From a virus: 52,051 bases of DNA. Position 1 is the first letter of the stretch. Each line of letters opens with the position of its first letter. Below, piece after piece: positions 1,180-51,976 of this stretch. The position numbers and the translations under genes are program-made. The notes under the pieces were generated by a model, which saw only the letters and a list, made by a program, of their open reading frames with translations, searched no databases and was not told where the DNA came from. Where the stretch lies: the IMG/VR virus record IMGVR_UViG_3300018080_000233, positions 1 to 52,051 of that record; one strand, written 5' to 3'.

Positions 1180-3768
1180 ATGGCTAATGTACAGCACAAT
1201 ACTCTGGACGGTGTTGAGGTTCATACACCGTTCCGATGGGACGTGGCCGATGACGCGGCTCGTCTTGCTCTGGTTGTATCGGTAAGCGATATAAAGAAGT
1301 TGTGCTATGTTCAGGCCACAACCGGAGTCTGGATTCTGACTGGCGTAAGCCCGGCGACATGGAAGCAGGTTGACCTGGGAGCTGTCAGTACAGGCACAGT
1401 AAAAGTAACGGCGGCGGATACGGGTCTGGACTTTCTGGGTGCGAAAGTAGCCGCAGGCGGAGGTATCACACTCAATGTTCTGAATCCAGGCGGTAATGAA
1501 CAGCTTGAGATTTCTGCAAGTATTGGAGCAATAGATCATAATGCTCTTTTGAATACCCACAATCTGACAACAGACATTGATCACGATACAATCACAAATG
1601 CTCATAACTTAACCACAGACATTGATCATGACACACTCACGAATGCTCATAACTTAACCACAGACATTGATCATAATGCAATTACCAATACTCACAATCT
1701 GACGACCGACATTGACCATGACACAATCACAAACAATCACAATCTGACGACTGACATTGATCACGATACAATTACCAATACGCACAATCTGACAACAGAC
1801 ATTGATCATGACGCATTGACAAATTTCGTTCTTGCGGAACACATTGACTGGTCAATAAATGGACCGGAGACTCTGCATGACAATCGTGTGCCCGCTTCCT
1901 GCGTGACACAACATGAGGGAGTTATTGATCATAATGCTCTGACCAATACGCACAATCTCACGACTGATATTGACCACGACACAATCACGAATGCTCATAA
2001 TCTCACGACTGATATTGACCATGACGCTCTCACAAATTTTGTTGCCGCAGAGCATATAAACTGGACCGTGCCTGGCATTGAGGTTCTTGACGATAGTCGT
2101 GTGCCTGCGTCAAACGTATTGCAACATGAAGCGTCTATTGACCATGACAATCTGACCAATACTCACAATCTGACGACCGACATCAATCATAATACTCTGC
2201 TCAATTATCTGGCGGCTGAACACATAAACTGGAATATTAATGGAGCGGAAACCATTCATGACGGACGTGTGCCCGCGTCTAATGTCACGCAACATGAAGG
2301 ATCAATCGATCATAATAATCTTCAGAATACACACGACCTGACAACAGATATTGATCATGACACGATTACTAACAACCATAACCTGACAACAGATATTGAT
2401 CATGACACGCTTACGAATTATCTTGCGTCGGAGCACGTTGATTGGGCGGCGAATGGAGCGGAAACACTTCACGATAACAGAGTGGTTGCTTCTAATATTA
2501 CACAACATGAAGCGTCTATCGACCATGACAATCTCCTGAACAGTCATAACCTCACGACTGACATTGACCATGACGGCCTGCTCAATTTTGTTGCTAATGA
2601 GCACATTGACTGGTCAATATCAGGCCCGCAAACTCTTCACAATGCCAGAGTTACTCTTGCGAATGTGACACAACATGAAGCTAATATTGATCACGACGGC
2701 CTGGCGAATACTCACAATCTCACGACTGACATTGATCACAATACCATTCTGAACAATCACAACTTAACGACTGACATCAATCACGATACCATTCTGAACA
2801 ATCACAATCTGACAACCGATATTGACCATGACGCAATTAATAATTATGTTGCGGCTGAACATATAGCCTGGGCAGTTATTGGAGCGGAAACACTTCATAA
2901 CAGTCGGGTCACGGCTGGAAATGTGACACAGCACGTCGGGTCTATTGATCATGACCTGCTTCTGAATACACACAATCTCACGACAGATATTGATCACGAC
3001 GCATTGACAAACTATGTTGCGAATGAGCATATCGACTGGACTGTGACAGGAGCGGCGGATATACATGACGACAGAATAGGATCGACAAGTGTGACACAGC
3101 ACGTCGCTCTCATCAACCACAATTCTCTGCTCAATACACACAATCTCACGACAGATATTGATCACACAACGATAAGTAATATCGGAACAAATTCACATGC
3201 CACGATTGATACTCACCTGGCTTCGACTACAAATCCTCATTCGGTAACTGCGGCACAGGTCGGTAACACTACCGCACAGTGGAATGCCAATCAATTACAG
3301 GGCCGTGACGTTCAGAATGTCGCTCCGAATAATCTGGATGAACTGGTCTGGAGCACAGGCAATACAAGATGGGAGCCCAGAGCCGCTCGAATGGGCTGGA
3401 TGCTTCATGGAGGCGTCGACGGTGTCGGAGCTAACAATACGACTCCGATTTCAATGGGAACGAATGCGGCGAATAACGGTGTTCCTATGATCCGGGCCGG
3501 ACGAATTGTTGGAATATCGATTTCAATTAATACTCCATGTACCTCCGGTACTCTGGACGGACAGGTGTTGCTCAATGGAGTTGCACAGACAGGCGCGGGC
3601 GAGACCGTACAAATCGAATCAGTGACCAATACAACAGACAACTATCAGATAATTCCGACTCCGATTACTTATGCGGCTGGAGATGTAATTTATGCACAAA
3701 CAGTGACAGTCGGTTTTGCTCCGAATGGAGCGGACGCGACGGTGTGCGTTTTCTGTGAGGACACATAA
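1180..3768 (+). CDS. large repetitive tail fibre protein
   Basis: An 862-residue fibre. Residues 1-115 form a globular N-terminus ending in the GGGITLNVLNPGGNEQLEIS segment common before fibre shafts. Residues about 116-700 are a shaft made of roughly 15-residue units of type HNLTTDIDHDTITNA (17 HNLTTDI-like copies), broken by seven EHIDW...ETLHDNRVPAS modules. The last 150 residues (GWMLHGGVDGVG onward) look like a beta-sandwich tip, probably the receptor-binding or trimerisation head. His and Asp recur regularly, and such residues can bind metal along a trimer axis, as HxH motifs do in T4 gp37. ATG 1180 has an overlapping strong ribosome site. Two accessory genes follow directly. Confidence 0.9.
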   Translation: MANVQHNTLDGVEVHTPFRWDVADDAARLALVVSVSDIKKLCYVQATTGVWILTGVSPATWKQVDLGAVSTGTVKVTAADTGLDFLGAKVAAGGGITLNVLNPGGNEQLEISASIGAIDHNALLNTHNLTTDIDHDTITNAHNLTTDIDHDTLTNAHNLTTDIDHNAITNTHNLTTDIDHDTITNNHNLTTDIDHDTITNTHNLTTDIDHDALTNFVLAEHIDWSINGPETLHDNRVPASCVTQHEGVIDHNALTNTHNLTTDIDHDTITNAHNLTTDIDHDALTNFVAAEHINWTVPGIEVLDDSRVPASNVLQHEASIDHDNLTNTHNLTTDINHNTLLNYLAAEHINWNINGAETIHDGRVPASNVTQHEGSIDHNNLQNTHDLTTDIDHDTITNNHNLTTDIDHDTLTNYLASEHVDWAANGAETLHDNRVVASNITQHEASIDHDNLLNSHNLTTDIDHDGLLNFVANEHIDWSISGPQTLHNARVTLANVTQHEANIDHDGLANTHNLTTDIDHNTILNNHNLTTDINHDTILNNHNLTTDIDHDAINNYVAAEHIAWAVIGAETLHNSRVTAGNVTQHVGSIDHDLLLNTHNLTTDIDHDALTNYVANEHIDWTVTGAADIHDDRIGSTSVTQHVALINHNSLLNTHNLTTDIDHTTISNIGTNSHATIDTHLASTTNPHSVTAAQVGNTTAQWNANQLQGRDVQNVAPNNLDELVWSTGNTRWEPRAARMGWMLHGGVDGVGANNTTPISMGTNAANNGVPMIRAGRIVGISISINTPCTSGTLDGQVLLNGVAQTGAGETVQIESVTNTTDNYQIIPTPITYAAGDVIYAQTVTVGFAPNGADATVCVFCEDT
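1525..3170 (+). repeat. nested tandem repeats encoding the fibre shaft
   Basis: Degenerate direct repeats of about 45 bp encode the HNLTTDIDHDxxxN unit and are interspersed with seven longer units beginning at the EHIDW-coding segments. Neighbouring units differ mainly at third codon positions, so protein sequence is conserved more than DNA. The region from about 1550 to 1840 holds six short units in a row. Elsewhere one to three separate the longer modules. Such an arrangement can change length by recombination. Confidence 0.9.
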
Positions 3769-4194
3769 ATGGTATATGCAATAATTTATAAAGATACTGA
3801 CCGGGTCGACCGGGTTTGCACTCATTCGGCAAATCTGGACGCAGAGTCAGAATTTTACGAAGTCGAGACCGATCATGTATTCAATCCTCCGGTGTTTCAA
3901 ATATGGTGGAAATACGACAGTCTTCTGGAGACATTCAGTGAGGACGGAACGCGGGTTCACATGGACGACGACGAGCAGACAGAGCATCTTACAGCTTATA
4001 TGACGTACCTTGCGGCCCAGGGATTCTCCGGCAATGCTCTGGATATAGACGAACTGGAGGCATGGTGGTCTGATAAAATTGATGCTGTGACTACTCTGGA
4101 AGAGATGAAAACCGTCATTAAAGATATAATAAAGATTATTGGACGTTCACAGTCAGCAACATTGTATGGCTGGAAGATCAAAAAGACTAAATAA
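3769..4194 (+). CDS. fibre-associated protein of unknown function
   Basis: A 141-residue acidic protein whose ATG directly follows the fibre stop codon, so the two are translationally coupled. The first 60 residues look beta-rich (FQIWWKYDSLLETF). The C-terminal 70 residues look helical with a basic end (KIIGRSQSATLYGWKIKKTK). The layout, a small gene immediately after a fibre, is that of fibre-assembly chaperones or fibre tip adapters. I recognise no family, so that role is only contextual. Confidence 0.65.
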   Translation: MVYAIIYKDTDRVDRVCTHSANLDAESEFYEVETDHVFNPPVFQIWWKYDSLLETFSEDGTRVHMDDDEQTEHLTAYMTYLAAQGFSGNALDIDELEAWWSDKIDAVTTLEEMKTVIKDIIKIIGRSQSATLYGWKIKKTK

Positions 4195-4499
4195 TGGAGA
4201 AGTTGATTGTATTGCCAATACTGCGAGACGGCTTGCCCGATAGCGGCGTCGTCCCTCACATTCGTATCAGAGATGCGGACACGAAGTCGGTTGAGGTCGA
4301 TTTTGATGCGATGGAAGAAGTCGGAGACGGCTGGTTCAGATATTATTTTCAGACATATAATCCAAAAAAGAATTATGTAGTAACAGTCGAGGTAGTAAAT
4401 TCGGAGGGTAATATTATTTATTATTTTGCCAGTAACGTGAGTTATGTCGAGGACATGAAATACGTCATTAAAGGCCCGGTAGCGAGGTTCAATCCATGA
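4194..4499 (+). CDS. small beta-rich virion-associated protein
   Basis: A 101-residue protein whose ATG overlaps the preceding TAA. Alternating hydrophobic strands (VPHIRIRDADTKSVEVDF, FRYYFQTYNPKKNYVVTVEV) suggest an immunoglobulin-like or related beta-sandwich. Its stop overlaps the start of the adaptor-like gene (ATGA). The next protein begins with a similar Ig-like segment, so the two may pack together in the neck or on fibres. The function is not established. Confidence 0.6.
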   Translation: MEKLIVLPILRDGLPDSGVVPHIRIRDADTKSVEVDFDAMEEVGDGWFRYYFQTYNPKKNYVVTVEVVNSEGNIIYYFASNVSYVEDMKYVIKGPVARFNP

Positions 4500-6220
4500 G
4501 TGCGGTTAAAAATCAAGAAATAGGTCAACAGGGAAGCACAATCACTCTGGATGTGTACTTCCATGAATTCGACGGAGGAGCTCTGGTCGATCCTGACACC
4601 CAGGTTGCTAACTATGAAATATTTGACCCGTCCGGTTCATCGCAAGAGACCGGTACGGGCACACGTCTCGGTCAGGGACGATACCAGGCTCAATTCGATA
4701 TTCCTGCGGCGGCGACAGTATCGGATCAGTGGAAAATCCAGTGGTCGGTAGTTATCGGAGGTCAGGGCGTCATTGACTATGAATACTTCCGTGTTGTTGC
4801 GGCGGGTTCAATACAATTCAATGAGGAAGAATATCGCAAGGGCAAATCGTTCGCTAATGAAGACCGGACAAGCAGTTATCATGCTCCGAATTGGGGTTAT
4901 ATCATAACTCCTGACGAACTCCGCTACATGGTTGGATTCGGAACAAAGCTCGTATCTCCTGACGCTTCACAGACTTATGACGACAACATGCTTCAGTATT
5001 ATATTGACGCGGCTATTGGAGTTTTTGCTAATGACCTGCGAATCGATATTTTTCCTCATGTTATTACTCATCAGGCTCCCAGAGACGCTGTGACAGGACT
5101 CCGGGGAGAACGAACTGACCTTCCCGCAGATTACATTACATTTATCAATTCACTTACTGACGAGCAGGCAGACCTGCGAATTATTGAAAAGGGTTATCCT
5201 TATCGACAGCCTCCGGCCAAAAAGAATTATATGTATATGAGGTTGCGGAATAGACCCGTTCGGTCAGTTGACAAAGTGGTCATGGTCGATCCTGTACAGC
5301 AAACACTTGTTGATTTGCTTCCTTACACGCAGGAGGAGCTCGGAATGGGAGGCACACTCCAGTTTACATTCTCGCAGTTGTCAAACATTCCTGTATTCCT
5401 GGGAATGCTCTCACCATTTCAGTATCCATTCCGGGATTACCCGAATGCATTTCTGATTGATTACAAGACGGGCTATGAGAATTCAAGAAATGTGCCGAAA
5501 GACCTTGTCGAAGTAATACGAATGCTCGCAGGCATTATGCTCCTGAATGATTTTGGGGACGGCAAGAGTCCTGGTCTGGCAAGCGCGTCGGTCAATTTGA
5601 ATAGCATATCAGAATCATTTGGCACGACGCAAAGTGCAAGTATCGGGCCGCGAGATGAAGTCGATCTCATGAATCCGAGGGGAGGTTTTCTGTCAGTACC
5701 TATTGGAATTCTTTACAAGCGAGTAAAGGACAAACTTATTGATCCGACGAATTATAAGGTCAGAGCAGTCAATCCTCTCAATGTTCTTGATATACAGTGG
5801 AAGCCATTGCTTGACGTGGTCGAGCATGTTGTCCCTGAAAAATTCTGTTATGAAATATCGACTCCCGATGCACACATCACGGTAACAGAGGATCATTCAT
5901 TATTTTATGTTGATCGATTCGGGCTCACACAAAAACGCGGCGATGAGTTTTTTGTCGGAGAATCAATTGCCTGCGTGACAAGAGCTGGAGTTGTTACTAA
6001 TGACAGGGTCGTCAAAGTTGAGCCTGTGAAAGTGCCGGGAGGAAAGGTGTACGACCTCTCGGTTGCAGACTTCCAGAATTTCATTGTGAACAATAGAATA
6101 ATTGCTCACAATACGAATGCTCTGTATGGAGCTCGAATCGGAGAGTGGTTGAAAACGATTGCGATATGGTGGAAGCGCAACAAATACAAATACGGTGTTC
6201 AATTTATAGGTGTTTTATGA
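4496..6220 (+). CDS. neck/adaptor-like structural protein interrupted by a mini-intein
   Basis: The 574-residue precursor starts at ATG 4496 (ATGA overlap). Residues 1-105 form an Ig-like beta domain. Residues about 130-370 carry the pattern of phage head-tail adaptor proteins (YIITPDELRYMVGFG, then YYIDAAIGVFANDLRIDIFP, then RLRNRPVRSVDKVVMVDP). Residues 382-539 are a self-splicing element, described separately. After Thr540 a basic helical tail resumes (TNALYGARIGEWLKTIAIWW). Splicing would give a 416-residue protein joining GTTQSA to TNALYG. A neck or connector role is inferred from this pattern and from the neighbouring head-tail joining genes. The adaptor assignment is family-level only. 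Confidence 0.7.
   Translation: MSAVKNQEIGQQGSTITLDVYFHEFDGGALVDPDTQVANYEIFDPSGSSQETGTGTRLGQGRYQAQFDIPAAATVSDQWKIQWSVVIGGQGVIDYEYFRVVAAGSIQFNEEEYRKGKSFANEDRTSSYHAPNWGYIITPDELRYMVGFGTKLVSPDASQTYDDNMLQYYIDAAIGVFANDLRIDIFPHVITHQAPRDAVTGLRGERTDLPADYITFINSLTDEQADLRIIEKGYPYRQPPAKKNYMYMRLRNRPVRSVDKVVMVDPVQQTLVDLLPYTQEELGMGGTLQFTFSQLSNIPVFLGMLSPFQYPFRDYPNAFLIDYKTGYENSRNVPKDLVEVIRMLAGIMLLNDFGDGKSPGLASASVNLNSISESFGTTQSASIGPRDEVDLMNPRGGFLSVPIGILYKRVKDKLIDPTNYKVRAVNPLNVLDIQWKPLLDVVEHVVPEKFCYEISTPDAHITVTEDHSLFYVDRFGLTQKRGDEFFVGESIACVTRAGVVTNDRVVKVEPVKVPGGKVYDLSVADFQNFIVNNRIIAHNTNALYGARIGEWLKTIAIWWKRNKYKYGVQFIGVL
5639..6112 (+). mobile_element. 158-residue Ser1 mini-intein (no homing endonuclease)
   Basis: In-frame intein from Ser382 to Asn539 of the host protein. 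Block A is Ser-I-G-P-R-D-E-V-D-L, followed by a Gly-Gly turn and VPIG. Block B is at intein residues 74-91 with the TxxH signature T83-E-D-H86. Block F is KVYDLSVADFQNFIVNN. Block G is IIAHN followed by Thr at +1. Ser1, the block B His, the penultimate His, the terminal Asn and Thr+1 are all present, so it should splice. The block F position often occupied by His is Gln. At 158 residues there is no room for a homing endonuclease. The N-terminal boundary was placed by motif, so it could be off by a few residues. Confidence 0.82.
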
Positions 6221-8324: not shown

Positions 8325-9027
8325 GAAAGCGGACGACTACGCTCTGGATTTTTTCATCGACGAATTGAAATATTTTGTTGAGAACGATTTGAGCCAGGTC
8401 AAATCAAATGGAATTGAGAAGACGATTGACTGGTTGCAATCGTCAAAGGAAGGCAAAAAACTTGTCAAAGAAATACTGGATTCAAAGAAAGCCGGAAAAT
8501 TCCGTAAACAGAGTCCCAGAGCGATAGCTCACAGCTCATGTACGATTGCGTCACGATATGGCTATATTATCGGAGCAATGTTTGTCGCTCCTCATGTTGC
8601 CAAAAATCCGCTCGTACCTTACGGTGAACATTATATCAAGCGTATTGCTGACGAGAGTGTTGTGCTTGACCGCAATGAAGACCCGGAGAAAAAAGTATAT
8701 ACTTATATTTCTGATTCTGCAAAGCTCGTCGCTCCGTACGCAACGCCGTCGTACTGGGAGATTGCAAGAGGAGAGTTATTCTCTCGCAATGCCGATATGA
8801 TCGCGGAGATGAAGCGGCAGAACCGAAAGGTCGTTCTCATTCGTGAGAATTCAGAAGCCGAATATGACGGATCGGGGCACACGCTTATGGCTATCAGGAA
8901 TAGCAAGGGTCAGTATGAAATTAATGACACGTATCACGGCCAGAGATTCGGCAAGACTATGGAGGAGCGGTATCACACGAACGGCTCTAAATGGTTGAGA
9001 TGGATTTATGGTGAATTGAATATATAA
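8305..9027 (+). CDS. candidate papain-fold (C39-like) cysteine peptidase
   Basis: A 240-residue protein with a good ribosome site (GAGAGGA) inside the end of the previous gene. A candidate catalytic triad is visible: Cys79 in HSSCTIAS at the start of a helix, His192 in GSGHTLMAIRNSKG, and Asn207-Asp208 in YEINDTY. The arrangement of Cys helix, then 'GH...' strand, then 'xND' strand is that of C39-like and related papain-fold peptidases. The first 70 residues are a helical extension. It precedes a holin-like gene, so it may be a lysis enzyme, or it could process virion proteins. The motif order is seen; the activity is inferred. Confidence 0.45.
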   Translation: MILEMIEKADDYALDFFIDELKYFVENDLSQVKSNGIEKTIDWLQSSKEGKKLVKEILDSKKAGKFRKQSPRAIAHSSCTIASRYGYIIGAMFVAPHVAKNPLVPYGEHYIKRIADESVVLDRNEDPEKKVYTYISDSAKLVAPYATPSYWEIARGELFSRNADMIAEMKRQNRKVVLIRENSEAEYDGSGHTLMAIRNSKGQYEINDTYHGQRFGKTMEERYHTNGSKWLRWIYGELNI

Positions 9028-9046
9028 TAAAACAAGAGGAAACATT

Positions 9047-9376
9047 ATGGCTTATGTAAAGCGTCTCTACAAGCGCACAAATGTCTGGATCGGGATCGGA
9101 ATGATTCTGATCGGATTTTTAGTGCCTATCGTCTGGTCAATCGGGTGGCCAAAGGCTTATGAACTGGCGATGAAAGATTTTGTCGTCGTCTGGGGCACCG
9201 TAAAATTCAATATGATTGTTCTTCTGATCCCGGTCGGAATGATAGCAATGATCGGTCACAAATTAATGCAATGGGGTATTGGCCAGGCAATTATTGGAGC
9301 TATCGGTGGTTTATTTACACGAATATTTGGAGGCGGTGGTCAGACACCTCCGCCTGCGACGGGAGGACGAAAATGA
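9047..9376 (+). CDS. two-span membrane protein, possible holin
   Basis: A 109-residue protein. AAGAGGAAA precedes ATG 9047. Two hydrophobic spans are evident: residues 13-32 (VWIGIGMILIGFLVPIVWSI) and about 52-72 (KFNMIVLLIPVGMIAMIGHK). The C-terminus is Gly- and Pro-rich (FGGGGQTPPPATGGRK). Size and topology fit a holin, and the three following genes are also membrane or exported proteins. The call is by topology and context only. Confidence 0.6.
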   Translation: MAYVKRLYKRTNVWIGIGMILIGFLVPIVWSIGWPKAYELAMKDFVVVWGTVKFNMIVLLIPVGMIAMIGHKLMQWGIGQAIIGAIGGLFTRIFGGGGQTPPPATGGRK

Positions 9377-9591
9377 TACCTGATAAGTTGAAAGTACATT
9401 TGAAAGAACTTGTCGCATTGAAATATTTCTGGCACGTTGCGGTCGGCCTTATAATCGTTGCATTGATTTTCTTTGCAGGACGTTCATGTGGCTATGACGC
9501 TGGACTCAAGCATGGATATACGAAAGGCCGTGCGGACGGAATACGGAGTATTGATTGCAAGGGTTCAAAGCACGAACCGGGGCCATTATGA
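9373..9591 (+). CDS. 72-residue single-span membrane protein (inner-membrane spanin-like?)
   Basis: ATG 9373 overlaps the previous stop (ATGA). The single membrane span is at residues 20-36 (WHVAVGLIIVALIFFAG), preceded by a short positively charged N-terminus, so the C-terminus should be periplasmic. The product is unusually short for an i-spanin and lacks a clear coiled coil. It is immediately followed, with ATGA overlap, by a lipoprotein gene, which is the usual order for i-spanin and o-spanin. The role is therefore suggested, not shown. Confidence 0.55.
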   Translation: MIPDKLKVHLKELVALKYFWHVAVGLIIVALIFFAGRSCGYDAGLKHGYTKGRADGIRSIDCKGSKHEPGPL

Positions 9592-9971
9592 AAATTGTAA
9601 AATTCATTCTGTCTTTCTTTCTCGTTGTTGGATGCTCGACGTGCGCTACCGGAGGCATGAAAATCATGCTCCCGGATTACAGCGAACATTGTCCTCCGTA
9701 CACAATGGTTGACGATAATGGAAAGGTGAAGTACTACGGCATGTACATTCGTCCTCACATTCGCAACAAGTGGGTACTGACAACAGAGGTAAGAAAGCTG
9801 GAAGGTGTTACAAAACAATGTCTCAAGCATCTGGACAGAGTCATGTTTCACAATATCGGTGAAATGCGAACGAAGTCATGCGGATATATGTGTCAATTAA
9901 AAACATTTGGAAAGGGAGCAGGAACGGGAGCTGTGATTACAGCTCTCATCATTCTGGCAATTGCTTTATAG
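9588..9971 (+). CDS. exported lipoprotein with lipobox VVGC
   Basis: A 127-residue protein. The N-terminus MKIVKFILSFFLVVGCST is a typical lipoprotein signal with Cys16 as the modified residue. The mature part is rich in Cys and His, and it ends in a hydrophobic stretch (GAVITALIILAIAL), which is odd for an o-spanin. Start ATG 9588 overlaps the preceding stop by ATGA. Together with the two genes before it this may be a lysis cassette, or it may be a superinfection-exclusion lipoprotein. Confidence 0.6.
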   Translation: MKIVKFILSFFLVVGCSTCATGGMKIMLPDYSEHCPPYTMVDDNGKVKYYGMYIRPHIRNKWVLTTEVRKLEGVTKQCLKHLDRVMFHNIGEMRTKSCGYMCQLKTFGKGAGTGAVITALIILAIAL

Positions 9972-42225: not shown

Positions 42226-42570
42226 GTGTCTTTACTCAATGATTATATAGATTTTCTCCGGGCGACGGCAGGGCCGGGTGACTATTATTATGATCGCGAT
42301 CCTGTTACCGGAGGAATCATGCCATATTTCAAACGGGGAGATATTGTCTCCAGAGATGGTACTGATGAACATTTGATTTATGATATGAACCGGGCCGGAG
42401 ATTTTATCAATGTAATTTGTCTCAAAGCTCCGAAAGATAAATGGACTGCGGTCGGTGAGACAGAGGGAAATGTGGCACGACGATACACATTGAAAGAGCA
42501 TCTCCTGAACTGGAGGGAGGTCTTTGAGAGGCTGAAAGGAATTCCAGTTGACAAATTTTTAGAACAATGA
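42226..42570 (+). CDS. small uncharacterised protein
   Basis: A 114-residue protein with GTG start after GAGGGCGG. It is beta-rich with an aromatic N-terminus (GPGDYYYDRD) and a motif KRGDIVSRDGTDEHLIYDM that looks like an SH3 or KOW-like barrel. Its end overlaps the downstream promoter. No family recognised. Confidence 0.6.
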   Translation: MSLLNDYIDFLRATAGPGDYYYDRDPVTGGIMPYFKRGDIVSRDGTDEHLIYDMNRAGDFINVICLKAPKDKWTAVGETEGNVARRYTLKEHLLNWREVFERLKGIPVDKFLEQ

Positions 42571-42576
42571 TATTAT
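42548..42576 (+). promoter_or_regulatory. near-consensus sigma70-type promoter
   Basis: Perfect -35 TTGACA (42548-42553), 17-base spacer, -10 TATTAT (42571-42576). The 15-base imperfect palindrome ATGATATTATGTCAT covers 42567-42581. The gene starts at 42597 with ACGGAGGA upstream. It should drive the ssDNA-binding-like gene, recA and the downstream repair set. Confidence 0.88.
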
Positions 42577-42596
42577 GTCATAACGGAGGAAAGTAT

Positions 42597-43490
42597 ATGG
42601 CAAAAAGACCTGTTAAAAACGCAGAAATCAAGAAACGAGGGGTCTCTCTCGGAACGGATGAAGGTGATCATATAGTTGATCGGGCACTGGCCGATGATGA
42701 CCGTCTAAAACTATCGAATGATAATGGACCGAACGTGTTTCTGTTATTGCATTCGGACGCATTCGCTCTGTCAGAGCACTTTGTTCGTAAGGCTGACAAT
42801 AGCATTGTACGGACATATTGTGGAGTCCACAAAGAAGGGGACTTCCGGGCAATTCTGGATACGGCAAGGTGGGCTGTGCCGGAGAATTGTGAGATGTGCA
42901 AGCGTGTTGTTGAGCTCCGCCAGAGAGCGAAGGACGACAAGAAGGGCGGAGATAAGATCAGAGAGATTGCAAGAGATGTTGGTTGCGCTGTGAGTGCATT
43001 GCTCGTTGCCGCTCCTGCGGATTATGAATCTCGCAAGGTTGGAGCTAAAAAGAGGATTATTCCTTTTTGTGATTCTCCGGCTTCTTATGGATTGTTGTCG
43101 CTGACCTATGCGGCATTTTCTTTTTTCTGGCAGGAATTCAAAGAGCAGGGGTTCAATGCGAACGATCTTCGCAAGGGATTATTCGTCAATTTTGAACGCG
43201 GCTATAAAACGCGCAAGGGCGGCGGCAAATCAAAATGGTCGCAGGTTATTGGCGTCGAATTCTTCAAGTCGAGCATTCCCGCAAACAAACTCCCGAAGTT
43301 GCCGGATGCTATTGATTTCAGTAAGTACGGCGATTATGGAGACTATCGTGAGGAAGCGATGAAAGAAACCTGTGAGGTTTTTGATGCGAGTTTAGCGTCA
43401 AAGCTATCAGGAACGTCAGCGCGGCGGAGTGGTAGTCGAGCAACGACTTCCAAAAAGAGACCTTCAAAGAAAGCTCCCCGGAGACGATAA
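42597..43490 (+). CDS. possible ssDNA-binding protein with zinc-binding residues
   Basis: A 297-residue protein; ATG 42597 follows ACGGAGGA. CGVHKEGDF... then CEMCKRV could bind zinc, as T4 gp32 does with a Cys/His set. Basic aromatic segments (LFVNFERGYKTRKGGGKSKW) would suit DNA contact, and the C-terminus is a Ser/Lys/Arg-rich tail. It directly precedes recA and has its own promoter, both typical of a phage SSB. No OB-fold signature is clear, so the call is tentative. Confidence 0.4.
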   Translation: MAKRPVKNAEIKKRGVSLGTDEGDHIVDRALADDDRLKLSNDNGPNVFLLLHSDAFALSEHFVRKADNSIVRTYCGVHKEGDFRAILDTARWAVPENCEMCKRVVELRQRAKDDKKGGDKIREIARDVGCAVSALLVAAPADYESRKVGAKKRIIPFCDSPASYGLLSLTYAAFSFFWQEFKEQGFNANDLRKGLFVNFERGYKTRKGGGKSKWSQVIGVEFFKSSIPANKLPKLPDAIDFSKYGDYGDYREEAMKETCEVFDASLASKLSGTSARRSGSRATTSKKRPSKKAPRRR

Positions 43491-44636
43491 ATGTCGGTAG
43501 CGTCAGCCAGAGCCCGGAAAATAGCGAAGGCCGTCGGAGAAAAATTCGATAAGGGCCTTGTTCGTACCCTCCAGAGCGGATTTCAATTGCCGTGTCTGGA
43601 GGGATTTTCCTGGGGTCTTGCTTCGCTCAACCATATTTGTACGGGTGATCCGACAATTGGTCTGGTCAGGGGTCGTATATATGAGCTCTATGGGCCGTTG
43701 TCGGGAGGCAAGACGACACTTTGCCTACATGCTGTCCGAGAGGTACAGTGTGCGGGCGGTGTCGTTGCATTTATAGATTCAGAACATGCTCTCGATCCGA
43801 GATACGCGGTGAAACTTGGGGTCTTGCCGAAGGACGTTTTATTCTGTCAGCCGGACAATGGTGAGGAAGCGATGACGGTTGCGGAGGAATTCATTAAGGA
43901 AAAGGTTGACCTCATTATATTCGATTCGGTTGCGGCTCTCACGCCGAAGGCTGTCATTGAAGGTAAGTATGATAAAAACCCGATTGGAATACAGGCACGG
44001 TTCATGTCGCAGTCACTTGCAAAATTACATAAGATTATCGCAAAGAACAAGTGCGTCGCATTATTTACCAATCAGGTCAGATTCAAAATTGGAGTTATGT
44101 TCGGGAGCCCGGAGACGACCCCTGGAGGAGAGGCTCTGGGTTTTTATGCATCGGTACGATTGCGCTCAATGGTCAGCACGGCCTCTGACAAGGCTGTGAA
44201 AGGTCAGGGCTCAATAACCGGTGAGAAAGACATCAAGCGTCTGGGCTCGGAAGGCACAATCAGGTGTGTCAAGAACAAGATATATGATCCATTCGGTGAG
44301 ACGACAATCCCTCTGTATTATGGCAGAGGATTTGATGCGGTTGCTGATGTATATAAACTTGCGGCCAGAATGCATCTTATTACTCACACGACTGGCGGCT
44401 ATCGCATTCCTGGAGTGCGTCTGGTCGTGAAATATGCTGGAATGGAGGAGCATGTCTCGAAGGTCTGGACATTGATACAGGAAGGTGATCGCGGTGTCAT
44501 TGAAGTCGATGCGGAAGTGGTTGACGACGAGCCTGTCAGTCTTCCTGCTCCAAAAAAGAAGACTGTAAAGAAGAAAGCGGTGAAAAAGAAGACCGCAAAG
44601 AAAAAGGTTGCAAAGAAAACCGGGAGGAAGCGATGA
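43491..44636 (+). CDS. recA: RecA recombinase with lysine-rich C-terminal tail
   Basis: A 381-residue RecA. Walker A is GPLSGGKTT (68-76; Escherichia coli has GPESSGKTT). E98 in SEHALDP is the catalytic Glu, LIIFDSVAALTP is Walker B, and ALFTNQVR (190-197) carries the Gln sensor. It lacks most of the E. coli N-terminal extension. From about residue 351 the tail is KKKTVKKKAVKKKTAKKK-like; the bacterial RecA C-terminus is normally acidic and autoinhibitory. Here it is basic, which could increase DNA binding or act as histone-like contact. It likely catalyses strand exchange in replication and repair. Confidence 0.92.
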   Translation: MSVASARARKIAKAVGEKFDKGLVRTLQSGFQLPCLEGFSWGLASLNHICTGDPTIGLVRGRIYELYGPLSGGKTTLCLHAVREVQCAGGVVAFIDSEHALDPRYAVKLGVLPKDVLFCQPDNGEEAMTVAEEFIKEKVDLIIFDSVAALTPKAVIEGKYDKNPIGIQARFMSQSLAKLHKIIAKNKCVALFTNQVRFKIGVMFGSPETTPGGEALGFYASVRLRSMVSTASDKAVKGQGSITGEKDIKRLGSEGTIRCVKNKIYDPFGETTIPLYYGRGFDAVADVYKLAARMHLITHTTGGYRIPGVRLVVKYAGMEEHVSKVWTLIQEGDRGVIEVDAEVVDDEPVSLPAPKKKTVKKKAVKKKTAKKKVAKKTGRKR

Positions 44637-45037
44637 AAGACGGAACATTGGTTACGGTGCATGACTTGAATACCGATAACCGTTTAATTGGTTATGTAAT
44701 GAACTGGAAAAACGAATCGTTTGAATTGTACCAGGGTAGCAGATTGATTGGAGACCATTTTCAACCAGGCGGTATGTGTTGGATATTTAATGAACAGAAT
44801 CCTTACGACGAGCTTGAGGTTGTTGTGGTAATGACTCAAAAAGGTTATGACGAGATTCAGGAGAGAGCCGTCGAGGGATACAAAGAGAAGTTGACGTCTA
44901 AAATTTCTCGACATGAAATGCCGTTTAACGTCCCAATTCCAGGCGCAAAATTTAGCACAGAATTTATCACACCTGTCAGTCAATTTCTTGACGAGCTTGA
45001 GAGGTTTGCAGATATACGTAAAAAATTAATTGATTAA
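44633..45037 (+). CDS. uncharacterised protein after recA
   Basis: A 134-residue protein (ATGA overlap with recA; GGGAGGAAG upstream). N-terminal strands (LVTVHDLNTDNRLIGYVMNW), then a helical C-terminus. It is followed closely by the SbcDC-like gene, so a repair accessory role is possible. No family recognised. Confidence 0.6.
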   Translation: MKDGTLVTVHDLNTDNRLIGYVMNWKNESFELYQGSRLIGDHFQPGGMCWIFNEQNPYDELEVVVVMTQKGYDEIQERAVEGYKEKLTSKISRHEMPFNVPIPGAKFSTEFITPVSQFLDELERFADIRKKLID

Positions 45038-45056: not shown

Positions 45057-48026
45057 ATGAGCAAGTATGTTATTAGTGCCGATTGGCATATCGGACTTTC
45101 AGAAGGGCATGACGAATGTATTCGTCGGGGTGTTGAACACATCGCAGAGGTCTGTGAAAAAGAGGACGCTGACTTCATTTTCGCAGGCGATTTATTTGAC
45201 CGACCGAGACCGTCGCCGGAGGACTACAGACTGGCGGGAGATTGTCTGGGACTGATCGAATGCAAACAGTATATCATTTCTGGCAATCATGATCGTACCG
45301 GATCAAAAGGTGTGACTGTTCATGCCTTTCAGAGCAATATGTTTACACGACATGCGAATGTGTATATTGCCGGAGATGAACCGGCAAGACATGAGCCGCG
45401 AGATCATGAATTAATACTTGCACCATTTGTGCATGATCAGGAAGGCCGGACTTACGGTGACGTGATAATTGAGCACTGCAAGGAGATAGGAAGTCCCGAT
45501 GAGGATATTCCCAGAATACTCGTTGCTCACGCGGATATTCCCGGAGCGATGTATGGAGCGGAGCAAGAAATTCAGCTCGGTCGTGTTGGTTCACTTCCTC
45601 CCATGCATGAATACGTTGACGTGATAATTGCCGGGCATATTCACAGACATCAGACATTCCGATATGGGCCGTGCACTGTGATTTATCCGGGGGCTCTCTC
45701 ACGGACGAGCCATACAGAGGAGAAAGAATACAAGGGATTTATTCTATTCGATACGGAAACGCAGGACGTCAAGTTTGTACGCCGCAAGGACGCACGGAAG
45801 TATCACACCGTCAAAATAAAGTGGCCGGGACAATTCCGAATGCCTGCGGCTCTGGCGAAGGCTGACGGTTGTGTCCGCTTGCAGATTGACGCGGCCAGGA
45901 GATACTCCGGCATGATCGACCGCAGAGCTATTGAGAAAAAACTGGCACAGAAATTTGATGAGGTTAAACTGGAAATCAATTATGAACGGAAAGTGAGCGC
46001 GTCCGCAAAGGCAGTGGCAACAGGCCGAGGCTTCGACGATTATGAGGAGCTCTGGCTTAAAGAGAATGTTGCAAGCAGGCTGACGACTGTGCGTAAATTA
46101 TTGATGAAATATCTCAAACAGGTGGACACGGGGGAGTCCCTGTCAGGGTCGAGAACGGGAGTCATTCTGAAACGTGTCAGGATCAAAAATTATCAGTCAA
46201 TCGATGAGGTTGAAATAGACCTCACGTCTAATGATTGTGTCGGAATTCTGGGAGAGATAGACGGCAAGCTCACGAAGTCAAACGGAGCTGGCAAGTCGTC
46301 GATACTTGAGGCAATAAGATTTGCCATGAACGGTGAGACACGCTGGTCAAAAAATGAGAAGGCTATCCGGCGCGGGACGGATAGTGCCGACGTCGAGATT
46401 GACATGGAGAACGGCTCCGGGGTTTATACCGTGCATCGAACGCTCAAAGCCAGGGGGGCTACAGCCTGGATCAGGCATGACGGTGAACAGCTTGCCAGAG
46501 GCCCGAACGAGGTCACAAAATGGTTTGAAGATAATTTCGGAGCGTCAAAGAAATTCTTTGATACTCTTATCTGGATTGGCACGAAGCGGAGGTCTGCATT
46601 ACTGGAAGCAAGGCCGCAGGAACGTCTAAAAGCAATTCAAGAGCCCCTCCCTCTGGGCCGCTACGAGAAAGCTCTCAAATTGATTCGTTCCGAGCGGACC
46701 TCGGCAAAGAGCAAGGTCGACGCGGCTCAAGGCGTGATTGAAGCGTTCGGCAACATGAAGCAATCCGATGTGACGAAGGCGGAGACGGAATTATCGGGGC
46801 TCACTAATAAGCGGAAAATGATTGAGGATCAGATTAAGGTATTGAATACCAAACTCAAAAGTCATGACATAATTGCCAGAGATCAGGACAAACTCGATGA
46901 GCTTATTGACGAGCTGGAAGAATGTCGGGACGAATTCAAAGATTGCCCCTGGCTCAAGCAGTCACCTGACGTGTACGTGCGGGAGACAAGAAAAGTGCTG
47001 GACGGATTGGATTCAGTATCCAGTCAAATGCTTGCGGATTTGTCACAGCTTGACGCCGGAATAAAGCTGGCAGAATTGAAGCGGAACGAAGCACAGGAAG
47101 CTATTGACACATTATTCGGTAAGTCACAATGTCCGACGTGCAATACGAAGCTCAAGCCTGACGCATATAAAGCGACAATGCAGGAGAAGAATGACGAGTT
47201 AAAAAAGCACAGTGATGATTGCGAGATTTATATTCAGAAATATCATGAGCTGGACATAAAATTCAAATCTAACAAAAAGAAAATCGATGATCTTAATGGT
47301 CGAAAATTGTGGGCTGAAGGACTTGTCAAGACCCAGAAGCGGATTGATACGATTCAGCCTCGTATTGATGAATTGAGGGCGAAGCATGACTATTCAGCTC
47401 TCAAGGGAATAAAAAAGCTGGAAAAGGATCATGAGACCCTGGAAAGGAATCGACGGACAACGTCGGATGCAATTTCTGACAAGCGGGCTGAAATTGATAG
47501 TATCAAGAAAGACCTGGAACGCTTGCAGAAAGCAAAGACGGAGCTCAAAAGTGCGGAGCAATTGAGCCAGGATTTGAATGTTGTGTATGAAGCATGTTCG
47601 CCGCGAGGAATTCCCTCTCTGGTTTGTAGTGAAATAATCAAAGAAATCAATGAAACGATACCGGACGTTGTTGAGGATTATAATTTCTGGCAGGATATTC
47701 AGGTTGCAATCTGGGAGATGACTGACGGTAATATCGTGATTGAAGCGGCAATTGACGACGAAGAATTGAACGAGGTCGAGGGCCTGTCAGAAGGTGAACG
47801 GGAGATTGTCAATCTGATTCTCATGTCGACATGGAAACGGGTGCTTGAGAGTCTGCTCGGTAGCTCATATAATTTCATCTTGATTGATGAGGCTCTGGAT
47901 AAGATGGACGAGGAGAACAGGAAGAGAGCTGTCAAGTATTACAGGCGGGTCAAACAGCAATCGCTGGTAATATCGCACAGTAATATCAGGGACTCATTCA
48001 GCAAGACGTTGATTGTAAGCCGATGA
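45057..48026 (+). CDS. single-chain SbcD-SbcC (Mre11-Rad50) nuclease
   Basis: A 989-residue fusion; ATG 45057 with TTGGAGGT is preferred over TTG 45030. Residues 1-360 are the nuclease with all metal motifs: SADWHIG, AGDLFD (43-48), SGNHD (75-79), VAHAD (156-160), AGHIHRH (192-198). Residues 367-989 form an SbcC/Rad50 ATPase: Walker A NGAGKSS (409-415), coiled coils around a CPTC zinc hook (692-695), signature LSEGERE (910-916), Walker B ILIDEA (941-946). Bacteria and T4 (gp47/gp46) encode these as two proteins. One chain would fix the 1:1 ratio. Likely role: processing double-strand breaks and hairpins for RecA. Confidence 0.92.
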   Translation: MSKYVISADWHIGLSEGHDECIRRGVEHIAEVCEKEDADFIFAGDLFDRPRPSPEDYRLAGDCLGLIECKQYIISGNHDRTGSKGVTVHAFQSNMFTRHANVYIAGDEPARHEPRDHELILAPFVHDQEGRTYGDVIIEHCKEIGSPDEDIPRILVAHADIPGAMYGAEQEIQLGRVGSLPPMHEYVDVIIAGHIHRHQTFRYGPCTVIYPGALSRTSHTEEKEYKGFILFDTETQDVKFVRRKDARKYHTVKIKWPGQFRMPAALAKADGCVRLQIDAARRYSGMIDRRAIEKKLAQKFDEVKLEINYERKVSASAKAVATGRGFDDYEELWLKENVASRLTTVRKLLMKYLKQVDTGESLSGSRTGVILKRVRIKNYQSIDEVEIDLTSNDCVGILGEIDGKLTKSNGAGKSSILEAIRFAMNGETRWSKNEKAIRRGTDSADVEIDMENGSGVYTVHRTLKARGATAWIRHDGEQLARGPNEVTKWFEDNFGASKKFFDTLIWIGTKRRSALLEARPQERLKAIQEPLPLGRYEKALKLIRSERTSAKSKVDAAQGVIEAFGNMKQSDVTKAETELSGLTNKRKMIEDQIKVLNTKLKSHDIIARDQDKLDELIDELEECRDEFKDCPWLKQSPDVYVRETRKVLDGLDSVSSQMLADLSQLDAGIKLAELKRNEAQEAIDTLFGKSQCPTCNTKLKPDAYKATMQEKNDELKKHSDDCEIYIQKYHELDIKFKSNKKKIDDLNGRKLWAEGLVKTQKRIDTIQPRIDELRAKHDYSALKGIKKLEKDHETLERNRRTTSDAISDKRAEIDSIKKDLERLQKAKTELKSAEQLSQDLNVVYEACSPRGIPSLVCSEIIKEINETIPDVVEDYNFWQDIQVAIWEMTDGNIVIEAAIDDEELNEVEGLSEGEREIVNLILMSTWKRVLESLLGSSYNFILIDEALDKMDEENRKRAVKYYRRVKQQSLVISHSNIRDSFSKTLIVSR

Positions 48027-49215: not shown

Positions 49216-49445
49216 TGGCACGGCAGGGGACAAAAGGAATGCTGTATTATTCCGACGACGGAGACCAGGAATTTTTTGACGGCTGTGATAAGCTGGAGGA
49301 AATGATTGACTCTGGCGACATGGACTGGTGTCTGGACACTCTGGAATCGATTCGGGAGTGGGCCGAAGAAAAGGAAATGATTACCGAAGCTCAATACGAT
49401 TCAATCAATAATTTCTGGGACAAGTATCAGGAGAAACAAAATTAG
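49215..49445 (+). CDS. small acidic protein before the polymerase
   Basis: A 76-residue acidic protein (TAATG overlap) with several aromatic residues (GMLYYSDDGDQEFFDG, then DTLESIREW). It overlaps the polymerase start by one base, so the two are translated together. Function unknown. Confidence 0.6.
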   Translation: MARQGTKGMLYYSDDGDQEFFDGCDKLEEMIDSGDMDWCLDTLESIREWAEEKEMITEAQYDSINNFWDKYQEKQN

Positions 49446-51976
49446 TGGCTCGCAGTAAGAAAGCTGACATGCAGTTGGTCGAATATGATGACGGCCAATT
49501 TTGTCGGAGATGTGAGGGCCTGACGACGTCGGGTCTTAATTGTTGCCCAGGCCGATTCGCTGACGACAGAGATCACAAAAAAGCCGATATTGCGATTATC
49601 GGTGAGGCTCCAGGTCAGGAAGAGGACCGGCTGGAGAAGTTTTTTGTCGGGCCTGCGGGTCAGGTCTTGAACGAATGGATTACTCACGCGGGTCTCGGAG
49701 GCCGAAAAATATGGTTGGATAATGTTGTGAGATGCACTCTTCCCGGAGACCTGGGAGACATGAATTCCTCGCAGGCCAATAAGCTCATAAGGAATTGCAA
49801 GCCGTATTTATTCAGGAATCTCGAACGCTTGAAGCCGAAGGTTATTGTCACGGTCGGCAACAAAGCTCTCAAAGCAATGACCGACCTGGCGGGAATCACG
49901 CGCTGGCGCGGACGGCTCCTGAAGTACCCGGCTCTGGGAGCATATATTGTACCAACATTTCACCCGGCGGCTGTGCTTCATGCTCACAGACCTCTCTGGG
50001 AGGAGCAGGCGGTCAGCGATCTCATTCTGGCGCGTAAGACACTACAGGCAAAGAAGCTGACGTCCAGGGCTCGCAGGTTTGTCTGGGTCAGGACCGAGAA
50101 GGAATTTCGGGCCTGTATGGACGAGATGAGCAAGGCTGACGAGATTGCACTTGACTTCGAGACGACAGGTCTTAACTTCCGAACGGACAAGATTATCGGA
50201 CTGATTCTTTGTGCTTCCCATACGAAGGCATATTTTATTCCATTCCTTCCGGTGATCAGTGAAGTAGTCAGTGACGAGAGCAAGGGTGACGTCATTTACA
50301 AATGGGTGGACGGTGACTATGTTATAAAGCGTCAATGGCTGTCAGCTATCAAGAGAGTCGTTGAGAATAGACGCAAGCTCAAGATACTGCATAATGCGGG
50401 TTTTGATCTTTTGTGGTTTATGACTCTCGGATGGGACTGCTATCCGATTTATGATACAATGATTGTGAACAGTATTATTGATCATATAGATAATGGTCTC
50501 AAGGATTTGAGCTATATTTACACTGACTTTGCCGGATACGACGACGACATTATTCAATATACCGGACGCGGAAATAAAAAACAATATATCAAAGTGCCGC
50601 CTCCGTTACTTGCAAAGTATGGGTGTCTTGACGGTATTGCAACATTTATTGTGAAAAAGGAGCACACAAAGGTTCTCCAAAAGAACAGAGCTCTTGCCCG
50701 GCTCTGTGCCGAACATAATGAGCTCCGATATAATCTGACGACAATGGAATACTACGGGATCAGGACTGCAAAGACTCACGCCAGTAAATTGAAGACACAG
50801 TATCTTGAGGAGACGCAGGCAATTGTCAAGCGGCTTCGACGCAAACTGAAATTGCCCGATCTGAATCCGAATGCCTCCGCTCAATTGATTGATGCGTTCT
50901 GGGGACCGAATGGGCCTCTGAATATTCGGGATTATAGAGGAGTAAAGAAGCCCTCGACGGACGCCAGGATACTCAAGGTAGTAAAGCGTCAGTGTAAATC
51001 AAAGAAGGCTCTTGCGCTTATCAGTGACCTCCAGGATTACAGAGTCATGTCAAAGAGGGTATCGACCTATCTGGATAAATTTCTTGAGGTTCATGAGGCC
51101 GGAGGGGACGGGAGAATTCGTACACATTTCACGCAAGATATTGCGCGTACCGGCAGACTATCTTCTCGCGCTCCGGCCTTGCAGAATATACCGCGCTTCG
51201 ATGCGATGAGAAATTGTTTTATTGCCGCTCCTGGACGGTCGTTTGTTGAACACGACTACAAACAGCTTGAAATATGTATTGCGGCGGAGGAATCTCTCGA
51301 TCCGACAATGCTGGAAATTATCAATACTGGAGGGGACTATCACAGCTATGTCGGAAGCACGACAATGACTGCTCCCGACGGTAACAGGTATCCGAAGCAA
51401 TTATTTATAACAGATAAGGAAATGAGGGCGGCGGCGAAAATCATTTCCTTTTCTGTTATTTATGGCAAGACGCCGCAGGGCCTTGCGAATGATTTGAATT
51501 GTAGTATTGATGCGGCGGCTCACATAATTGTTCAGCTTACCAGAGCGGCGTTTCCTGTTCTCGGTGAATGGATGGATCAGCAATACGCTTTTCTCCGTGA
51601 TCATGGTTATGTCAGGACAATATTCGGTCGAGAGCTTCCGATTGCAAATTATGATTCGGCTGACTCATTTGAGCTGGAAGCGGCGGAACGTCGAGCAATC
51701 AATTATCCGATTCAGAGCGGTGCGTCCGATTGTGTTGTAATTGGAATTAATCGGGTCGCACAGAAGCTCCGAAGGGTGAAGCTCCCGGTCGATCTCCGGC
51801 TGACGGTACACGATTCGCTCCTGGCCGAAGTGGACGACGACTATGTTGAGGAGTATGCGGCTCTGGCAAAAAAGGAAATGGAGAGGCGAATACCGGAAAT
51901 AAAAAGAGTGAAATTGAGTGTTGACGTTGCGGTCGGTAAAGCCTGGGGTCGCATGAAAGAAGTCAATGTTAATTAG
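49445..51976 (+). CDS. polA: uracil-DNA glycosylase (family 4) fused to DNA polymerase I
   Basis: An 843-residue fusion with GTG start (TAGTG overlap). Residues 1-205 are a family 4 UDG: iron-sulfur Cys20/23/97/118, GEAPGQEEDR (53-62), VPTFHPAAVL with His173. Residues 210-410 are a 3'-5' exonuclease: LDFETTG with D237/E239, NAGFD (317-321), Y392-x3-D396. Residues about 420-843 are a family A polymerase: motif A EHDYKQLEI (D604), motif B RAAAKIISFSVIYG with R661, K665, F669, Y673, motif C VHDS with D790 (Ser replaces the usual Glu). There is no 5' nuclease. Likely the replicative polymerase, able to excise uracil on the same chain. Confidence 0.93.
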   Translation: MARSKKADMQLVEYDDGQFCRRCEGLTTSGLNCCPGRFADDRDHKKADIAIIGEAPGQEEDRLEKFFVGPAGQVLNEWITHAGLGGRKIWLDNVVRCTLPGDLGDMNSSQANKLIRNCKPYLFRNLERLKPKVIVTVGNKALKAMTDLAGITRWRGRLLKYPALGAYIVPTFHPAAVLHAHRPLWEEQAVSDLILARKTLQAKKLTSRARRFVWVRTEKEFRACMDEMSKADEIALDFETTGLNFRTDKIIGLILCASHTKAYFIPFLPVISEVVSDESKGDVIYKWVDGDYVIKRQWLSAIKRVVENRRKLKILHNAGFDLLWFMTLGWDCYPIYDTMIVNSIIDHIDNGLKDLSYIYTDFAGYDDDIIQYTGRGNKKQYIKVPPPLLAKYGCLDGIATFIVKKEHTKVLQKNRALARLCAEHNELRYNLTTMEYYGIRTAKTHASKLKTQYLEETQAIVKRLRRKLKLPDLNPNASAQLIDAFWGPNGPLNIRDYRGVKKPSTDARILKVVKRQCKSKKALALISDLQDYRVMSKRVSTYLDKFLEVHEAGGDGRIRTHFTQDIARTGRLSSRAPALQNIPRFDAMRNCFIAAPGRSFVEHDYKQLEICIAAEESLDPTMLEIINTGGDYHSYVGSTTMTAPDGNRYPKQLFITDKEMRAAAKIISFSVIYGKTPQGLANDLNCSIDAAAHIIVQLTRAAFPVLGEWMDQQYAFLRDHGYVRTIFGRELPIANYDSADSFELEAAERRAINYPIQSGASDCVVIGINRVAQKLRRVKLPVDLRLTVHDSLLAEVDDDYVEEYAALAKKEMERRIPEIKRVKLSVDVAVGKAWGRMKEVNVN

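Follow-up and report, generated by a model that had tools for sequence, protein, structure and literature searches.

The window analysed here, a 52,051-nucleotide stretch of viral DNA, carries at 45057..48026 (+) a single-chain SbcD-SbcC (Mre11-Rad50) fusion of 989 aa plus stop, which was identified from its open frame and from Pfam and PHROG matches. We regard this fusion as confirmed in the sequence as given, and our best reading of it is a divergent new member of an already known architecture. By analogy with T4 gp47/gp46, the protein very probably acts as a phage nuclease of the Mre11-Rad50 (SbcCD) type that processes DNA ends for recombination-dependent replication, with the nuclease and the ATPase motor, which many organisms make as two separate proteins, joined in a single polypeptide.

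The gene begins with an ATG that has TTGGAGG just upstream and continues for 989 codons without an internal stop, the stop codon ending at 48026. Frames +1 and +2 contain dozens of stops around the gene, several of them on either side of the junction, and the chance of a 989-codon open frame is ~1e-26 at the base composition of the window. The SbcD-side and SbcC-side homologies share this open frame; the sequence as given therefore encodes one chain. The initial annotation, which had placed all five Mre11 metal motifs and the Rad50 motifs in one 989-residue frame, was correct on this point, as the frame is intact and the motif residues are invariant in our alignments. Further, a search of the whole 52-kb contig for a second SbcC or SbcD copy returned the fusion gene as the only match.

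The SbcD/Mre11 phosphoesterase domain comprises residues 1-245 (45057..45791; this and all other features of the fusion are on the plus strand) and is matched by (i) Pfam Metallophos PF00149 at residues 5-197, above the cut-off, (ii) the PHROG family SbcD phrog_100 at residues 1-298 (E 3e-30), and (iii) the structures of Staphylococcus aureus SbcD (7dog, residues 1-279 of our model, Z 24.9, rmsd 4.0 over 257 residues) and Escherichia coli SbcD (4lty, Z 24.4). In an alignment of the window protein with six separate phage SbcDs, the following residues are invariant: D9 and H11 of motif I (D9-x-H11, 45081..45089); G44 and D45 of motif II (G44-D45-L-F-D48, 45186..45200); G76-N77-H78-D79, namely motif III (45282..45293); H158, namely motif IV (45528..45530); and H194 and H196 of motif V (G193-H194-I-H196, 45633..45644). 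The catalytic His and all the metal ligands (D, H, D, N, H, H, H) of the calcineurin-like phosphoesterase fold of SbcD/Mre11 are thus present. Residues 246-356 (45792..46124), which align to SbcD C-termini, putatively hold the place of the capping domain and a C-terminal Rad50-binding helix. Residues 246-326 occupy the capping-domain place, with pLDDT <50 in 255-276, 278-284, and 305-336, and a helix predicted at 327-356, directly before the linker, is positioned like the Rad50-binding helix.

The SbcC/Rad50 half is matched by Pfam AAA_23 at residues 373-625 and SbcC_Walker_B (PF13558) at 904-963, by the PHROG SbcC family at residues 291-987 (E 4e-59), and by the Rad50 chain of an archaeal Mre11-Rad50 complex (3av0_B), which superimposes on residues 367-989 of the model with Z 29.6 and rmsd 4.6 over 347 residues. 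Alignment with six separate phage SbcCs showed that all four ATPase elements are present, with their key residues (989-aa numbering) invariant: Walker A NGAGKSS at residues 409-415 (46281..46301), where N409-G410 and G412-K413-S414 fill the invariant NGxGKS columns; the ABC signature LSEGER at 910-915 (47784..47801), with S911 and G913; Walker B FILIDE at 940-945 (47874..47891, within the PF13558 match), with D944-E945; and the H-loop His974 (47976..47978). The CxxC zinc hook, CPTC at residues 692-695 (47130..47141), has both C692 and C695 invariant and sits between the predicted helices 534-686 and 701-847. The ascending coiled coil spans residues 534-689 (46656..47123; model helices 534-564, 569-628, and 637-686) and the descending one, likewise helical in the model, spans residues 701-847 (47157..47597). 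At 0.15 nm per residue, these predicted arms of ~150 residues would reach ~20 nm, which would be shorter than those of cellular SbcC.

The same division was returned by other searches of the whole protein. A PDB sequence search matched SbcD/Mre11 in the first ~300 residues and SbcC/Rad50 from residue ~369 to the end, and in NCBIfam both domains were significant by E-value, yet below the curated cut-offs. The AlphaFold2 model, built from 26 sequences, has a mean pLDDT of 78.7; with a pTM of 0.47 and low confidence across residues 255-336, it gives no established placement of the SbcD half relative to the SbcC half. Between the domains, the linker (residues 357-368, 46125..46160) is a predicted loop of ~12 residues (~36 nt). 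In the normal complex, the Mre11 C-terminus and the Rad50 N-terminus lie ~28 Å apart, a distance that a linker of 9-12 residues suffices to bridge (PMC3175470). The normal geometry is therefore compatible with fusion in the window protein, and the earlier view that fusion would force a fixed geometry on nuclease and ATPase does not follow. The junction of another viral fusion, from IMG/VR locus L057 (3005-6223), MKLMKEAGQGESKIRSAEGTKI, resembles that of the window, MKYLKQVDTGESLSGSRTGVI, both linkers following the pattern MKxxKxxxxGES...G, though our trees do not pair the two proteins.

A sequencing or assembly artefact could in principle mimic such a gene, if two neighbouring or overlapping genes had been merged at the ~36-nt linker through an indel or the loss of a stop codon. 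Most relatives do keep sbcD and sbcC apart, frequently side by side or with an overlap of a few bases, so that a single error could join them. Against this, the SbcC homology opens at GTC ATT CTG (residue ~369-371) with no ATG, GTG, or TTG in the 13 codons upstream, and neither the in-frame ATG at 46104 nor the GTG at 46122 has a clear Shine-Dalgarno site. Moreover, the linker has the length expected of a fusion, and the same architecture occurs in contigs that are independent of one another and represent at least three lineages, as well as in published cases (PMC3175470). We consider an artefact very unlikely. A related reading keeps the fusion and adds a free SbcC, initiated at a non-canonical start within the linker (ATT 46164 or CTG 46167) behind CGGGAG. 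The purine-rich GGGAG does lie ~5 nt 5' of CTG 46167, where the SbcC homology starts, but short GA-rich stretches are frequent by chance, and two products appear very improbable. Very little probability attaches to the compound case, in which an independent fusion in an unsampled lineage of small myophages would be combined with an internal linker start, yielding fused protein plus free SbcC in mixed stoichiometry. One SbcD-SbcC chain remains our reading of the gene.

Fusions of this kind were described in 2011, when Yoshida, Claverie, and Ogata reported Mimivirus R555 and twelve further Mre11/Rad50 fusions from bacteria, plasmids, eukaryotes, and Bacillus phage 0305phi8-36 (PMC3175470), among them A7KV18 of 0305phi8-36 and proteins of Clostridium kluyveri and a Deferribacter plasmid. 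The window gene agrees with their definition of a fusion, as both domains lie in one open frame, SbcD first, with a short linker; its linker length and domain order match those of the published cases, which makes it a new, divergent member of a known architecture. A profile search for one-chain fusions elsewhere, which the initial annotation had proposed, did find them. From a profile-like scan of IMG/VR we obtained 31 SbcC loci and tested the ORFs of each with SbcC and SbcD profiles: 4/31, representing three lineages, encode single-chain fusions, namely L045 (963 aa from its ATG), L062 (1003 aa), L057 (1072 aa), and L056 (1150 aa), and the remaining loci have separate genes. The sample is small and motif-selected, and 4/31 is no estimate of frequency. 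Together with the 2011 report, these cases remove the suggestion that the architecture is rare and possibly novel. The L056 fusion (1376-4828) has an atypical nuclease site, with GQHD for GNHD and DCH for HxH, and has GKT in Walker A.

No close relative of the fusion was found in viral contigs or genome contigs. With tblastn, 50,697 phage records yielded 339 matches, none covering >80% of the protein; among the matches listed, no annotated phage protein exceeded ~27% identity. A plasmid search gave six matches. Four apparent fusions, namely those of Pseudoalteromonas phage XG4 and Vibrio THAF (by their tblastn appearance), a Nicoliella plasmid, and Lactobacillus phage 3-521, were rejected, since each proved to consist of two ORFs. 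The 18 best matches in the viral structure library were chains of 866-1417 aa aligned over ~1000 or more columns; several giant viruses are represented among them, as are Listeria phage LMTA-57 and Tenacibaculum phages. The fusion already published for 0305phi8-36, A7KV18, ranked 43. In the closest IMG/VR relatives of the window RecA (L002-L004, 33-37% identity), sbcD, recA, and sbcC are three separate genes, arranged in this order, and in L023 sbcD and sbcC are adjacent but separate. Between recA and sbcC, L003 and L004 contain a 254-aa ORF (9002-9766) with a GIY-YIG-type homing endonuclease-like start, YKVTCLINGLIYVGHHS, and L002, which is near-identical to L003, has a 104-aa ORF at that place.

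The history of the fused state was examined in a tree built for 40 loci from concatenated SbcD and SbcC, in which canonical cellular SbcCD clades are poorly sampled. Across these loci the label changes between fused and separate at least twice on starred branches and three times in the best tree, and a single clade of all five sampled fused proteins was rejected (AU p 2.8e-5). As no single clade unites the five, fusion or splitting has recurred, and tree and sample together back the 2011 proposal that fusions formed recurrently in viruses (PMC3175470), with splitting as the alternative route. L057 falls inside the T4-like gp46/47 group, L045 and L062 form a clade of their own, and the window protein is a long branch of unsure placement. 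A clade of the window protein with L057, prompted by their similar linkers, was disfavoured (p 0.013), and a pairing with L056 joins two long branches and was not trusted.

The source contig, a 52-kb virus record, contains tail sheath and baseplate wedge genes, and the virus is therefore a myophage. Its replication module runs in the order SF2 helicase, helicase loader, DnaB, primase, RecA, a 134-aa ORF, the fusion, a weak HNH match, and PolA. The phage RecA/UvsX-like recombinase reported beside the fusion in the initial annotation is indeed there, two genes upstream at 43491..44636 (+) (PF00154, E 4e-74; phrog_97, E 8e-60), and it bears a Lys-rich C-terminal tail, KKKTVKKKAVKKKTAKKK, beyond its core. 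The two ORFs flanking recA, that of 134 aa between recA and the fusion (44633..45037, +) and one of 307 aa (42567-43490), gave no family match in Pfam or PHROG. The DNA polymerase A (49445-51976), which has a 3'-5' exonuclease, carries an N-terminal domain of the uracil-DNA-glycosylase superfamily (PF03167, residues 46-193, E 6e-24) and is a second fusion within the same module; no close relatives of this PolA were found in viral contigs. The UDG-PolA fusion itself seems common, because matches to many phage polymerases begin at residue ~20.

For the SbcD-SbcC fusion, we propose that two chains would dimerise through their ATPase heads, SbcD parts, and hook into the usual 2:2 complex, in which ATP-controlled closure of the heads would allow DNA ends to be trimmed, or hairpins opened, by the nuclease. 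The phage RecA encoded close by could then receive the resulting 3' ends for break repair and recombination-dependent replication, in the way proposed for T4 gp47/gp46 with UvsX, and the fusion itself may chiefly secure 1:1 expression and co-inheritance of the two activities. SMC-like ATPase-nuclease systems serve in phage-host conflicts too, and Lamassu and Jet SMC chains do appear among the structure matches, at lower rank, in keeping with a role outside replication-linked recombination, such as degrading host DNA or countering host defence. The gene context is nevertheless a replication/recombination module, and three of the four fused IMG/VR relatives (L045, L062, and L057) also carry a UvsX-like recombinase gene no more than a few kb away, which makes such a role very unlikely. 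Our preferred function remains end processing for recombination-dependent replication.

The window fusion reveals no new kind of system. For biochemistry and cryo-EM, however, one-chain Mre11-Rad50 proteins naturally supply both components at 1:1, and a small version from a phage, with its short coiled coils, would be handy for such work.

Among known systems, T4 gp47/gp46 and the cyanophage homologues share with the window protein the two activities (predicted here), a setting in a replication module, and a RecA/UvsX partner, but they are encoded by separate genes and are only ~20-22% identical to it in the SbcC half. SbcC and SbcD are near-universal in jumbo myophages (PMC7824862). The SPO1-like Herellevirus SbcD/SbcC proteins, for example those of Lactobacillus phage 3-521, have the same kind of insertion before Walker A as the window protein; this phage is among the best matches, with ~24% identity over both halves, but its two genes are separate. 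The four IMG/VR fusions have the same one-chain SbcD-SbcC arrangement, with only 17-19% identity to the window protein; the full-length alignment used trimmed rows, since whole SbcD rows misplaced SbcD C-termini into the SbcC part. The fusions of Yoshida et al. (PMC3175470) have the same domain order in one chain, a short linker, and a virus or plasmid setting, and, as in Mimivirus and 0305phi8-36, the fusion is the sole copy in the window virus. By the published descriptions, the window protein differs from Mimivirus R555 in length (989 versus 1351 aa) and in motif II, where its GDLFD keeps the last Asp that is a His in R555, and it contains both halves of the ATPase, in contrast to the 0305phi8-36 protein.
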